Source: an uncultured Verrucomicrobiales bacterium (GTDB lineage Bacteria > Verrucomicrobiota > Verrucomicrobiia > Verrucomicrobiales > Akkermansiaceae). From it: a stretch of 45,154 nucleotides of DNA. This document shows positions 21,244-25,853 of the stretch, in pieces (the first letter of the stretch is position 1; each line of letters opens with the position of its first letter). The stretch is from contig CALGLJ010000090.1 in the NCBI GenBank assembly GCA_937930235.1, forward strand, positions 1 to 45,154. Direction: 5' to 3'. Under the pieces are notes generated by a model. That model was given only the letters and a program-made list of their open reading frames with translations, was not told the origin of the DNA and ran no database searches. Position numbers and translations under genes: made by a program.

Positions 21244-22734
21244 ATGAACTCAGCATCGGAAGCCCCCACAAATGAATTTATTGAAAAAAATTCTACGCTC
21301 ACAGAAAGAACCGAGAGCCTATTTCAAGACCTTCCCAAAATATGGAAGAACGTGCAGAAAAAACTGCAAAACTACCTCAGTGAAGATGCTTACCTTCGTT
21401 GGTTTCAAAATGCCGAGCTGGTGCAGGTTGATGGCCAGCAAGGAGTGATCGGCGTGAATTCCGATATGCAGCAAATCTGGGTAGAAACGAATTACCTCGA
21501 TGAGCTCCGAGCGGCCTTTGCGGAAGGAGCAGGAATCCACTGTAGTCCGTCGGTAGTGGTCATGGGGCAAGAGGAGACGTTCGCGCGATCTGCCACGCCT
21601 GAGCATACCCAGTCAGATCGAGGAAGTAGCCCATCAGCGGAGCCTCAGAAAAAGGTGATCCCAGATCAGTCCGGGACGGCGATGCCGATTGCGGTGGAGC
21701 GGAAGCTGAAACGCATGGGGGTGAATCCAGAGTTTAGTTTTGAAAGCTTTGTCGTGGGACAGAATAGCCAGTTCGCTCATGCGGCTTGCTCCGCAGTGGC
21801 TTCAAGAGAAGGACGCAGTTTTAATCCATTATTTATCCATGGCCGGCCCGGTCTTGGGAAAACCCACTTAATGTCTGCCATCGCGCAGCAATTGATGGTG
21901 ATGGATCCCAAGGTGAAGGTGGTCTTTCTCACTGCCGAACAGTTTGCCAATGAATTCATCGATGCGGTGAGAAAGGGGAGTTTGGATGTCTTCCGTAAAG
22001 CTTACCGAACCGCAGATTTCATGCTGATCGATGACATTCAATTTCTTGGAGGCAAGGAGCGCACGCAGGATGAATTTTTCCATACCTTCAGTAAGCTGCT
22101 CAATATGCAGACTCAGATCGTTTTGACCTCGGACCGCCCTGCACATGAGATCCAAACTCTGGAGCCACGTTTGGTGAGTCGTTTCGAGAGTGGTCTCACG
22201 GTAGAGTTAGACCCGCCAGGCTTGGAGACCCGCATCGCAATTCTCCGTCGTAAGATGGAGCTCTGGAACGTCGAGCTGAGCAATGATGTCGTTTACCATA
22301 TTGCAAATCTCATTAAAAGTAATGTCCGCCGTTTGGAGGGTGCGCTTACCCGGGTTGCGAGCTTTAGTTTTCTCTCAAGTGAAGCCATGACAATCGCGAA
22401 AGTGGATGATCTTTTGAAAGATCTCGTCCGAGATGAGAACTCCCGCCTCACGACGATTGATGATGTGCAGCGCGCGGTTTGTAGTCATTATGATCTGACG
22501 CTCGGCGATATGACGAGTAAGCGGCGACCTGCAAGCATTGCCTTTCCAAGGCAGGTCGCGATGTTTCTCTGCCGACAGCTCACTAAGCATTCCTTAGTAG
22601 AAATTGGCGAAGCCTTTGGCCGACGTGACCATGGAACTGTCATTCACGCTTGTAAAAAGGTGAAGGAAACAAGTGAAGATGACCCCTCTGTCGCTTCCGC
22701 CGTAGAGATCATTCGAACAAGTCTTCAACGCTGA
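21244..22734 (+). CDS. dnaA: Chromosomal replication initiator protein DnaA
   Basis: A 496-residue protein with the four DnaA domains. Domain I is at about residues 30-105 (WKNVQKKLQNYLSEDAYLRWF), a variable Ser/Gln-rich linker follows to about 160, then the AAA+ ATPase with Walker A GRPGLGKT (200-207), Walker B LIDDIQFLGGKERT and the sensor region. The C-terminal DNA-binding domain carries the signature EIGEAFGRRDHGTVIHACKKV. It opens the origin by binding DnaA boxes. It lies directly downstream of the putative origin region and 96 bases upstream of dnaN; the intergenic hairpins suggest that the two genes may be separately controlled. Confidence 0.98.
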   Translation: MNSASEAPTNEFIEKNSTLTERTESLFQDLPKIWKNVQKKLQNYLSEDAYLRWFQNAELVQVDGQQGVIGVNSDMQQIWVETNYLDELRAAFAEGAGIHCSPSVVVMGQEETFARSATPEHTQSDRGSSPSAEPQKKVIPDQSGTAMPIAVERKLKRMGVNPEFSFESFVVGQNSQFAHAACSAVASREGRSFNPLFIHGRPGLGKTHLMSAIAQQLMVMDPKVKVVFLTAEQFANEFIDAVRKGSLDVFRKAYRTADFMLIDDIQFLGGKERTQDEFFHTFSKLLNMQTQIVLTSDRPAHEIQTLEPRLVSRFESGLTVELDPPGLETRIAILRRKMELWNVELSNDVVYHIANLIKSNVRRLEGALTRVASFSFLSSEAMTIAKVDDLLKDLVRDENSRLTTIDDVQRAVCSHYDLTLGDMTSKRRPASIAFPRQVAMFLCRQLTKHSLVEIGEAFGRRDHGTVIHACKKVKETSEDDPSVASAVEIIRTSLQR

Positions 22735-22806
22735 AGCGCTAAAAATCATAAAGATGGCTTAAATGAAGCCTTGCCAAGGAATCAGTCGGAAGGCAGTTTC
22801 CTTAGT

Positions 22807-22822
22807 ATTCCCTAGAGGGAAT
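22807..22822. repeat. Inverted repeat just before dnaN
   Basis: ATTCCCT and AGGGAAT are perfect 7-base arms around a 2-base centre, ending 8 bases before the dnaN start codon. It could be an operator or an mRNA hairpin covering the ribosome binding region. Confidence 0.55.
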
Positions 22823-22830
22823 CTAGCGCG

Positions 22831-23928
22831 ATGAAATTTCTGATCACTAAGGAGGCATTTTTGGATGGGTTGCAGCAGGTGCAGCATGTGGTGAGTAGCC
22901 GAACAACACTCCCGATTCTCTCGAACGTGCTCATCGAGGCTAATGACGAAGGTCTACGGCTCACGACGACAGATCTTGATGTTGGCGTCAGTGGCGTGGC
23001 CAAAGCCGAGGTGTCGAAGGGTGGTTCCACCACTCTCCCGGTGCGCCGCCTCTTTAGTATCATTCGCGAGCTTCCATCGGAGGAGATCGAGGTATCTGTT
23101 GATGCGAAGAATGTGGCCAGCATTAAGAGTGGGCCAAGTTTTTTCAAAATCATCGGATTAGCGGACAACGAATTTCCACCTCTCGCTGATTTTGCAAATG
23201 CCAAGGAATATAAAATTCCCCAAGCCATCCTGCAAGAGGGGCTTAAAAAAACATCCTATGCCATTTCGAGTGATGAGACGCGCTACGTGCTGAACGGGAT
23301 CTTTGTCTCTTTCAAGGAAGGTAAGCTCACCTTAGTGGCCACAGATGGTCGCCGTCTCGCGATGGTCGAGAACGATCTTGAATTCCCCTCGAGCCATGAG
23401 ACCGATTTCATTGTGCCCACGAAAGCGGTGCAGGAGTTACAGCGATTACTCACGGGGGAAGGTGAGGTTCTCGTCTCCTTGAGTGATAATCAAATCTGCT
23501 TCGAAGTGGGAACCAGCATTATCGTGAGCAAACTCATTGAGGGGAATTACCCAAATTACCGCCAGGTGATTCCGGGAGAATCGAAAGAACGTCTGACCCT
23601 CAATCGTGAAGCGCTCTTTGAAACGGTGCGTCGAGTTTCTCTCTTATCCTCCGATAAATCTAACTCGATCAAACTCAGCTTCAATCTGAATGAACTCGGA
23701 GTCACTGCCAACAGTCCAGATATTGGAGAAGCAAATGAATCGGTAGATGTGAAATATGAAGGGAAGGAATTTGCCATCGCATTTAATCCCGAGTTTTTAC
23801 AGGCCCCATTGAAAGCGCTTTCGGAAAAAGAAATTCACCTCGATCTCATTGATGAAATGAGTCCTGGGGTTCTTCGTACGGATGATGCATTTCTCTATGT
23901 GCTCATGCCGATGCGGGTGAATTCCTAA
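22831..23928 (+). CDS. dnaN: DNA polymerase III beta sliding clamp
   Basis: A 365-residue protein with the three repeated clamp domains. It opens with the usual MKFLITKEAFLDGLQQVQHVVSSRTTLPILSNVLIEA type sequence, has YVLNGIFVSF and LVATDGRRLA in the middle domain, and ends with a clamp-typical AFLYVLMPMRVNS, where the M-P-M-R end is highly conserved. It encircles DNA and tethers polymerase III and other factors. It follows dnaA as in most bacteria. A well-formed terminator lies directly after it (23944-23968), so the next gene is transcribed separately. Confidence 0.98.
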   Translation: MKFLITKEAFLDGLQQVQHVVSSRTTLPILSNVLIEANDEGLRLTTTDLDVGVSGVAKAEVSKGGSTTLPVRRLFSIIRELPSEEIEVSVDAKNVASIKSGPSFFKIIGLADNEFPPLADFANAKEYKIPQAILQEGLKKTSYAISSDETRYVLNGIFVSFKEGKLTLVATDGRRLAMVENDLEFPSSHETDFIVPTKAVQELQRLLTGEGEVLVSLSDNQICFEVGTSIIVSKLIEGNYPNYRQVIPGESKERLTLNREALFETVRRVSLLSSDKSNSIKLSFNLNELGVTANSPDIGEANESVDVKYEGKEFAIAFNPEFLQAPLKALSEKEIHLDLIDEMSPGVLRTDDAFLYVLMPMRVNS

Positions 23929-23943
23929 CAGTTCACTGAACCG

Positions 23944-23968
23944 AGACCTCGGAGCGAGAGGTCTTCTT
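23944..23968 (+). terminator. Rho-independent terminator after dnaN
   Basis: AGACCTC (23944-23950) and GAGGTCT (23958-23964) form a 7-base-pair stem with a 7-base loop, followed by TCTT. It begins 16 bases after the dnaN stop codon. Confidence 0.65.
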
Positions 23969-24048
23969 GATTTCAGGTGGTGATTTCCGCCGTCTTTTTA
24001 AAGTACGGTTGCTCTTCTCTGAGAAAGGCATAAGATCTACTCAATCGG

Positions 24049-24906
24049 GTGAGTTTGATCGAGATACAAGAATTTACAAAATTGCACTGGCGCGCTGGGG
24101 CCGAAATTTTGGTGCTCTGGATTTTCATCTACCAGATTTACCGAGTCTTTCGTGCCACTCGGGGAGCGCGTATCTTGGTCGGCTTGGCGGCGGTGATGAT
24201 CCTCCTGACTCTGACTTCTCAGCTTCTCATGCTCGAGGTCATCGGGTGGATTATTAAGAGTATGGCTGCGATTCTGGCATTTGCGCTTCTCATTATTTTT
24301 CAACCAGAGCTGCGAAGTGCTCTGGCTCGGCTTGGGAGTACTCGGCTTTTTCGGTTTTCGAGTTCCGAACAGCATGCCTTCTTAGACTTACTGGCAGACG
24401 CCGTGGTTCAGCTTTCCAAAAAACGATTTGGAGCTCTTTTCGCGGTTGAGAGAACAATCGAGCTCAAGGATTATGCCGAAACCGGAGTGAAGCTGGATGC
24501 GGTTCTCAGTAAAGAACTGACGGCGACAATTTTTCATCACAAGACGGCTCTACATGATGGCGGAATGATTATCGCGACGGAACGCGTGCAGACGGCCGCT
24601 TGTGTTTTTCCGGTCAGCCAGAAGCAGCTCACAGACCGTTCACTTGGGCTGCGCCATCGCGCAGGTTTGGGGATTTCCGAAGAAAGTGATGCCGTGGCAA
24701 TCGTTGTCAGCGAAGAAACAGGAACGATCTCGATCTGCATCGATGGTAAGATGCAGCGGGATCTTTCTGAGCAAGATTTCCGAGACCGACTCAAAGAAAT
24801 TTTCTTATCACCTCATGCAAAATTTACTGAAGAAATGGCTAGTGAGACACTGGGCCGCGAAGATCGCAGCTCTCGCTCTCGCGATCGCAATCTGGTATCT
24901 GATTAA
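24049..24906 (+). CDS. cdaA: Diadenylate cyclase (CdaA-type, c-di-AMP synthase)
   Basis: A 285-residue membrane enzyme that makes cyclic di-AMP from two ATP. Three N-terminal helices (about residues 18-85) are followed by a DisA_N/DAC domain with LHDGGMII (168-175) and the conserved GLRHRAGLG (200-208) ATP-binding motif, then AIVVSEETGTI. The usual DGA of the first motif is DGG here, an Ala-to-Gly change in the catalytic motif. The start is a GTG at 24049, and the helices begin soon after it. The 3' end overlaps a small out-of-frame membrane-protein gene (24815-24931), and bioD follows. In Firmicutes cdaA is followed by cdaR; here only a CdaR-like helix is found. Confidence 0.93.
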   Translation: MSLIEIQEFTKLHWRAGAEILVLWIFIYQIYRVFRATRGARILVGLAAVMILLTLTSQLLMLEVIGWIIKSMAAILAFALLIIFQPELRSALARLGSTRLFRFSSSEQHAFLDLLADAVVQLSKKRFGALFAVERTIELKDYAETGVKLDAVLSKELTATIFHHKTALHDGGMIIATERVQTAACVFPVSQKQLTDRSLGLRHRAGLGISEESDAVAIVVSEETGTISICIDGKMQRDLSEQDFRDRLKEIFLSPHAKFTEEMASETLGREDRSSRSRDRNLVSD

Positions 24907-24931
24907 GCTCCATTTAGCGGGAACTTTATGA
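24815..24931 (+). CDS. 38-residue membrane microprotein, CdaR/YbbR N-terminal-helix-like
   Basis: A 38-codon frame begins at ATG 24815, overlaps the last 92 bases of cdaA in another frame, and ends with TGA overlapping the bioD start (ATGA). The product has a basic start (LLKKWLVRHW), one hydrophobic helix (residues about 13-31, AKIAALALAIAIWYLI) and a short tail. This pattern, a basic/aromatic lead followed by LK-like, LALAIAIW and a charged stop, is how CdaR/YbbR proteins begin, but the YbbR domains are missing. No Shine-Dalgarno site is visible, so it would depend on translation of cdaA. The two tight overlaps and the family-like helix support a real gene, but this is inference. Confidence 0.5.
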   Translation: MQNLLKKWLVRHWAAKIAALALAIAIWYLIKLHLAGTL

Positions 24932-25563
24932 TTCTGGATCAAGAAAAAGCGGTCTTTCTCACCGGAACAGATACCGGAGTGGGAAAGACTTACGTTTCTG
25001 CCTTGATCGTAGAGGAGATGCGAAAAAGGGGAAGCGATGCCGTCGGCTTGAAGCCTGTCTGTAGTGGAGATCGTGATGATGCCGAGCGCCTGTGGCAAGC
25101 GGCAGGGGGGACGGTGGATATCGACACGATCAATCCGTATTGGTATCGCACTCCTATTGCACCTCTCCCTGCGGGAAGGATTGAACGGCATTCCTTGGAT
25201 CTCTCCGAGATGGTGGAGAATGTATCAAGAGTGCGCGCGGAAGTTGATTTTACCTTAGTAGAAGGAGCGGGCGGCTGGGAAGTGCCACTGGGAGAAGGGT
25301 TTGGCATTCCAGAATTTGCGCAAGCTCTTACGATGCCGGTGATCGTGGTCGCCGATAATCGTTTGGGGGCGATCAATCATACCCTTCTCACGGTGAAAGC
25401 GATTCTCGGAACTGGCCTGCCTTGCTTAGGGATTATTTTGAATCATATCGAAGCGGAACGGAATGTTGCGGCGGTGACGAATCGAGCGATGTTAGCAGAG
25501 CTTTCCCCTGTGCCAGTGATTGCCGAGGTCCTCACTGATGGAGGAGAGATTGATTGGGCCTAG
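24928..25563 (+). CDS. bioD: Dethiobiotin synthetase
   Basis: A 211-residue ATP-dependent carboxylase-type P-loop enzyme that closes the ureido ring of dethiobiotin in biotin synthesis. The P-loop GTDTGVGKT is at residues 13-21, GLKPVCSG follows, then EGAGGWEVPLG and VVADNRLGAINHTLLT near residues 140-155. Its start overlaps the TGA of the upstream microprotein frame, so it may be translationally coupled to the cdaA unit. No bioA, bioB or bioF genes are in the window, so it is separated from the rest of the pathway. A 7-base-pair hairpin (25595-25619) follows it but lacks a strong T-run. Confidence 0.95.
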   Translation: MILDQEKAVFLTGTDTGVGKTYVSALIVEEMRKRGSDAVGLKPVCSGDRDDAERLWQAAGGTVDIDTINPYWYRTPIAPLPAGRIERHSLDLSEMVENVSRVRAEVDFTLVEGAGGWEVPLGEGFGIPEFAQALTMPVIVVADNRLGAINHTLLTVKAILGTGLPCLGIILNHIEAERNVAAVTNRAMLAELSPVPVIAEVLTDGGEIDWA

Positions 25564-25658: not shown

Positions 25659-25853
25659 ATGAAGGTTTTTTCACTTTTTGGAGCGAGCGCTCTCTTCTTG
25701 GCGACTCTGGTATCTTGCGGAGAGTCCACCGATAGCCGCAAGGCAGGTGGAGCAGCATTCAGTGATTCTGAATTGGGGCGTAAACTTGATGCCAATGCTC
25801 CTCTGGAAAGTCAGCGTGATTCTTCTTTTGAACAATGGCGTGACGGGCGCTAG
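25659..25853 (+). CDS. Small putative lipoprotein
   Basis: A 64-residue protein with a lipoprotein signal peptide: a basic start, a hydrophobic stretch (FSLFGASALFLATL) and a lipobox LVSC with the cysteine at residue 20. The mature part is about 45 residues, polar and rich in Ser, Asp, Arg and Gly (SDSELGRKLDANAPLESQRD), probably unstructured or partner-bound. It is likely anchored in the inner face of the outer membrane or in the inner membrane. No family is recognised. It stands alone between bioD and the M29 aminopeptidase gene. The lipobox makes a chance frame less likely, but expression is unproven. Confidence 0.6.
   Translation: MKVFSLFGASALFLATLVSCGESTDSRKAGGAAFSDSELGRKLDANAPLESQRDSSFEQWRDGR

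Follow-up and report, generated by a model that had tools for sequence, protein, structure and literature searches.

Which gene follows cdaA in Verrucomicrobiales, at the position that cdaR holds in the operon order cdaA-cdaR-glmM described for Firmicutes (PMC8573169)? We addressed this question in an uncultured member of Akkermansiaceae, within a 45,154-nucleotide stretch of contig CALGLJ010000090.1 (the window), for which an earlier note had described a tiny out-of-frame open reading frame (ORF) between cdaA and bioD as a possible reduced CdaR. CdaR, its position after cdaA, and CdaA-CdaR fusions are already known, while its regulation of CdaA is described as unclear (PMC8573169). In the literature searched, whose coverage leaves most subscription journals outside, we found no description of a CdaR that lacks YbbR and is cut to one helix, and papers retrieved for Verrucomicrobi- together with CdaR/c-di-AMP or YbbR were, by title and abstract, on other subjects. 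Our sequence comparisons suggest that the microprotein is likely to be CdaR reduced to its N-terminal membrane segment, serving as a fixed structural subunit of CdaA.

A small frame under selection at the end of cdaA

The microprotein frame opens with an ATG at 24815, closes with a TGA at 24929-24931, and comprises 38 codons plus the stop, with the translation MQNLLKKWLVRHWAAKIAALALAIAIWYLIKLHLAGTL (38 aa). It overlaps cdaA by 92 bases and bioD by 4 bases, so that both the coordinates and the translation agree with those given previously. The upstream gene encodes a CdaA-type cyclase, with CdaA_N and DAC domains and a TIGR00159 score of 232.5 bits against a cut-off of 188.8, and the downstream gene encodes dethiobiotin synthase by its TIGR00347 match. 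dnaA and the DNA polymerase III beta-clamp gene lie directly upstream of cdaA (21244-24931, + strand). Further downstream, a 64-codon frame (25659-25853, + strand) matches no Pfam model and perhaps encodes a small lipoprotein; its LVSC is presumably a lipobox-like motif.

Features at the cdaA locus of the window
Feature	Position	Strand	Evidence
cdaA, membrane-linked diadenylate cyclase	24049..24906	+	GTG start; CdaA_N and DAC; TIGR00159
CdaA_N membrane domain (PF19293), residues 18-87; putative docking site	24100..24309	+	Pfam; columns changed without helix
DAC cyclase domain of CdaA	24397..24753	+	Domain match
Microprotein gene, putative CdaR-derived single-helix protein	24815..24931	+	Translation, conservation, frame selection, profile comparisons
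Hydrophobic helix, codons K16 to I30; one-face stripe W13, K16, L20, A23, W27, I30	24860..24904	+	Conservation among helix-only ORFs
bioD, next gene; 4-base overlap with microprotein	24928..25563	+	ATG 24928; TIGR00347

We compared constraint in the two overlapping frames across 11 genomes of the genus, using pN/pS as uncorrected proportions. Within the overlap, pN/pS is 0.37 in the microprotein frame and 1.26 in the cdaA frame, and differences by microprotein codon position number 308, 213, and 591, third positions varying most. Upstream of the overlap the relation is reversed, with values of 0.50 and 0.25 in the cdaA frame and of 1.09 and 1.69 in the same +1 frame, which there contains stop codons. 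Thus, in all 11 congeners, the start of the microprotein marks a change in which frame is constrained, cdaA before it and the microprotein after it, and the last 92 bases of cdaA show no constraint in the cdaA frame. This switch indicates that the end of cdaA is here a tail overwritten by the microprotein. The listed ORF runs further upstream, to a GTG at 24602 (109 aa); the selection test gives no support for this start and points instead to a start at 24815 or close to it. We found no Shine-Dalgarno-like site upstream of the microprotein start in the window, and such a site is present in just 47 of 161 relatives.

The earlier note had asked whether relatives retain the helix under constraint in its own frame or instead break the frame with stops. 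Retention is what we found: the helix frame is open in all 11 genomes of the genus (own genome included), and an ATG stands at -92 in 10 of them, G168 being the exception. The frame ends at 34 codons in G162 and G157, past the helix, which appears as an internal TAG in the 38-aa alignment. Total length within the genus ranges from 34 to 51 codons, with a variable tail beyond the helix.

The microprotein lies outside the models of Pfam, none of which matches the 38 aa over its cut-off. NCBIfam likewise gave no match, a result that is little informative since NCBIfam also missed a full-length CdaR that we tried. Family scans of the microprotein and its relatives returned merely weak matches to unrelated families (best E 0.0059), and a plasmid collection gave no match. 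A match to the 38 aa at E<=1 is present in 91 of 97 family genomes, the weakest rows lying partly away from cdaA, and profile A3 matched the microprotein in its own genome at E 9.6e-16, the next best match there having an E of 0.18.

Presence was also counted on genomes picked by CdaA alone, which avoids selection by the microprotein itself. In the order, the 3' end of cdaA bears the helix in 91 of 103 genomes (87 as a separate ORF and 4 fused to CdaA); these 103 are the genomes, out of 133 with a CdaA match, in which the cdaA 3' end was read, near-identical genomes and contig ends having been thinned. The 12 without it are seven genomes of lineage f3, three of f2, L145, where the contig ends, and L170, where the helix is recovered by the family's own profile (which matched 60 of 60 family genomes, 59 of them in its training set). 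Among other genomes of the class, from which those with a weak DAC match were omitted and 37 of these searched separately, the helix was present in 61 of 65; of the four missed, G244 and G456 carry it elsewhere, G442 has a hydrophobic CdaA end, and G431 has none. The helix ORF of G244 (L184, L325) lies ~750 bases downstream of cdaA and that of G456 (L225, L326) on another contig, and both genomes retain the CdaA membrane consensus.

A set of named loci gave a similar result, with the helix in 77 of 78 loci with a readable cdaA stop; these come from the best 80 of at least 581 CdaA-alignment matches and hence are near the query. Loci with the helix include Akkermansia muciniphila, Prosthecobacter, Verrucomicrobium, Roseibacillus, Chthoniobacterales, Candidatus Udaeobacter, and Opitutus, while the cdaA stop was unreadable in L273 and L319, and L058 and L176 had no CdaA match. 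Presence counts exclude the second CdaA of G054 (L163), a divergent copy without helix; the frame adjoining it resembles what we take to be an M50-type membrane protease. Taken together, the microprotein appears from its sequence to be a real conserved gene, beyond chance.

Relation to CdaR and loss of the YbbR domains

The microprotein had been likened to a reduced CdaR, a likeness that profile search and hhalign now bear out. A profile built from 16 N-terminal helices of YbbR-bearing CdaR proteins outside the class, all of which had been recognised by iterated profile, matches the helix at the cdaA end in 51 of 60 family genomes, a count that, like the lengths given below, includes family genomes picked by the 38 aa and is therefore biased upwards. 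The same profile matches there in 16 of 24 f2, 31 of 31 f4 (fusions included), 2 of 9 f3, and 54 of 67 class genomes. Its single off-site match in 13,824 six-frame segments is L184, the helix that lies downstream of cdaA in G244. The profile recovers just 17 of 30 CdaR loci of the phylum, which indicates that the CdaR helix is variable.

For hhalign we used 23 CdaR N-termini chosen by YbbR match and hydrophobicity, which avoids dependence on recognition by the iterated profile; seven of 30 were dropped because of wrong strand or frame. The microprotein family aligned to these N-termini at 96% (E 2.5e-9), against 42% (E 2.6e-4) for the control alignment to the first transmembrane helix (TM1) of CdaA. 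As judged from these alignments, generic hydrophobic likeness accounts for only part of the score. The membrane helix of the microprotein is thus a homologue of the N-terminal CdaR helix, and the microprotein further resembles the CdaR of the cdaA-cdaR-glmM operon in its place at the cdaA 3' end and its basic N-terminus.

The microprotein differs from CdaR in having no YbbR domain (PF07949). YbbR was found neither in the 38 aa nor in the window's own genome, which is 86.6% complete, and a full-length cdaR elsewhere in that genome, which the earlier note had named as a possible counterexample, was thus looked for without a match. Across the overlapping sets, PF07949 is present in 0 of 141 order genomes, 25 of 188 class genomes, and 109 of 194 phylum genomes, so the proposed loss of the YbbR domains holds throughout the sampled order. 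YbbR is present in the control genomes, which are from Bacillus, Deinobacterium, Bacteroides, and Lactococcus, so loss is the more parsimonious direction of change.

The microprotein is also far shorter, with 38 aa against a median distance from helix to stop of 316 aa outside the class (16 of 30 phylum loci with a recognised helix). In the class this median is 130 aa, with 29 ORFs below 110 aa and 34 above, and it falls to 52 aa in f1 (the window's family), 81 aa in f2, and 58 aa in f4. Of ten long-tailed proteins scanned for YbbR, six are from the class, where two match over the cut-off, one matches below it, and three give none; none of the four from the order matches. The tails beyond the helix vary with lineage, being proline-rich in f4, FPVPGT-like in f2, and glutamine- or glutamate-rich in part of f1, while Akkermansia-like genomes carry EIRRSHP (L106, L126, L009, L127, and relatives provide tail examples). 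These may be lineage-specific outer tails.

The gene order shows both the likeness to the CdaR operon and a difference from it. As in that operon, glmM is next in most sampled class genomes (58 of 67), and it follows the helix in 17 of 23 f2 and 17 of 31 f4 genomes. In f1, bioD follows in 48 of 60 genomes, and it does so in the window, where the microprotein also differs from CdaR in its 92-base overlap with cdaA. Own glmM sits on another contig. In the stretch read, neither glmM nor bioD follows the helix in the remaining genomes, nor does either in the 30 phylum loci.

Fusions, the helix face, and the CdaA membrane domain

We found that the helix forms the C-terminal end of CdaA itself in four genomes, three of one genus (G021, G049, and G139) and one of another genus with a different linker (G108). 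Where two proteins that other genomes encode separately are joined in one chain, this is good evidence of a joint function. A further fusion, independent and worn, may be present in G442 (L217), whose CdaA has a degenerate hydrophobic segment at its end. Since the helix is fused C-terminally to CdaA, its N-terminal end should lie on the cyclase side, and charge agrees with this: 132 of 139 helix-only ORFs fit an anchor pattern, and net charge averages +2.9 on the N-terminal side of the helix and about 0 on the other. In the same 139 ORFs, W, K, L, A, W, and I recur every 3 or 4 positions, and conservation lies on one side of the helix, its helical moment at 100 degrees being significant (p 0.0001 for columns 16-33, 0.001 for 15-34, and 0.001 for 19-33).

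The AlphaFold model of a natural fusion places the helix at a pLDDT of about 85, only around 291-310, and Foldseek returned the cyclase domain for it among the top 50 matches listed. Among solved structures, 17 sequences matched CdaA, the only near full-length chain being 9g69, with GlmM; a CdaR query matched just two YbbR fragments (E 0.046 and 0.68). Some other membrane proteins have small accessory subunits that consist of a single helix, KdpF being one. The microprotein resembles KdpF-like subunits in being one short membrane helix, and it differs in that its helix is traceable, through intermediates, to a large parent regulator. The CdaA-CdaR fusions of some streptococci, as described in PMC10243994, likewise hold cyclase and CdaR helix in one chain, whereas the four verrucomicrobial fusions consist of CdaA with the helix and a short tail only.

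Using 29 class genomes with a short helix ORF, we defined two sets of CdaA columns, 14 in the membrane domain and 43 in the cyclase domain, and then read them in other genomes, counting gaps as mismatches. The membrane consensus is kept at 0.79 in order genomes with the helix (112 genomes), 0.86 in fusions (4), 0.82 where the helix has moved (2), 0.84 with longer CdaR (34), and 0.77 in the phylum (30), against 0.39 (seven f3) and 0.38 (three f2) in genomes that lack the helix. The cyclase columns are kept at 0.82-0.91 in all groups (0.84-0.86 in the with-helix, fused, and helix-less f3 and f2 groups). Hence, loss of the helix goes with decay of the CdaA membrane domain and not of the cyclase domain. 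There are exceptions: two f3 genomes with the helix keep 0.61 of the membrane columns, and G431 and L296, counted as helix-less, keep 0.64. Residues of CdaA_N such as I20, L23, Y28, R38, and I42 are mostly changed in helix-less genomes, many of the changed residues lying on TM1 and the loop after it.

The helix has been lost in 7 of 9 f3 genomes and three f2 genomes, all of which have CdaA, and it is therefore not indispensable. The losses amount to five changes on a tree of the cyclase domain, possibly fewer as one key clade has a support of 0.5. We also searched the whole genomes of the 37 class members with a weak DAC match, and the helix was present at E<=0.01 in none, while the same query does match in G000 and G010. 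The DAC of these genomes lies, in most rows, in open frames of ~450-500 aa, and CdaA_N was not found over its cut-off in any of them, with one weak match elsewhere. Within the phylum, the longer DAC protein of these genomes (G217, G225, G241, and 34 others) represents a cyclase type of its own. That genomes without a CdaA-type cyclase also have no helix is as expected of a CdaA subunit; shared ancestry of the 37 genomes could also explain it.

Alternative readings and a proposed role

The short and variable tail (the window copy is among the three shortest in the genus) and the loss of the helix in some lineages would suit a functionless, decaying cdaR remnant that is recognisable by chance. 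Purifying selection in the microprotein's own frame, together with its wide retention, its fusion to CdaA, and its conserved helix face, leaves this reading almost no credence. The product might instead be mainly an extension of CdaA, made by ribosomal frameshifting into the +1 frame, since natural in-frame fusions exist and in all 70 overlaps of at least 30 bases the ORF lies in the same frame, +1, relative to cdaA. We regard such an extension as improbable because the ATG at -92 falls, in 10 of 11 congeners, where the selected frame changes, and because, of 175 genomes of the order and class, 32 have a helix segment that begins only after the cdaA stop. It is very improbable that the helix serves the following gene (bioD here, glmM elsewhere) as a translation-coupling leader or membrane anchor and has no part in CdaA. 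The 4-base overlap with bioD, and an ORF end at NTGA in 20 of 59 family genomes, would fit such coupling, but the following gene varies by family while cdaA stays, and the likeness to CdaR, the fusion to CdaA, and the decay of the CdaA membrane domain on helix loss all point to CdaA.

The main rival accepts binding to CdaA and reverses its sense, the helix being an inhibitor or brake and not an assembly subunit. It holds this rank because published reports disagree on the direction in which CdaR affects CdaA: cdaR deletion raises c-di-AMP about 2.5-fold in Porphyromonas, as given in PMC9259658, and CdaR is called negative in some Gram-positives in PMC12974146, whereas co-expressed Bacillus subtilis CdaR raised c-di-AMP in Escherichia coli according to PMC8316131. 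Neither this last result nor the permanent fusion of the helix to CdaA in some relatives is decisive, and we consider a brake unlikely on balance.

We therefore return to a structural subunit of CdaA as the preferred reading. Contact between CdaR and CdaA is described as running through their membrane domains, and AlphaFold models of streptococcal fusions suggest TM1 as the site on CdaA (PMC10243994). The short basic N-terminus of the microprotein, if translated, would be cytoplasmic and its one helix would span the membrane, with the W-K-L-A-W-I face packing on the CdaA membrane domain, probably on TM1. Suppressors of ybbR loss in Staphylococcus aureus map to the third CdaA membrane helix and not to TM1, as stated in PMC5207132, which is a point against contact with TM1. 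The microprotein would have a positive structural role, holding the CdaA membrane bundle in its working arrangement, and would thereby help the cyclase to form the oligomers that it needs and influence c-di-AMP. CdaA is thought to need higher oligomers for activity (PMC8573169). Of the outer YbbR part, some relatives would have kept one or two domains, and Verrucomicrobiales and several related lineages would have lost it altogether. Since a protein without YbbR exposes little outside the membrane that could act as a sensor, the single-helix version is probably constitutive.

We propose more tentatively, and at somewhat less than even confidence, that, across bacteria, the only essential part of CdaR is its membrane helix, which would serve structurally as a subunit in the CdaA membrane bundle, with YbbR as a dispensable addition for sensing. 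Many Verrucomicrobia would then have kept this core and nothing else, be it in a microprotein of its own or in an additional helix of CdaA. The proteins described here would be natural minimal CdaRs of one helix, among them that of Akkermansia muciniphila, some fused to CdaA and some lost along with the matching CdaA surface. They would offer a clear case of a regulator worn to a single helix and still under selection, and they would make the key part of CdaR and its contact surface open to simple deletion, swap, and co-purification tests.
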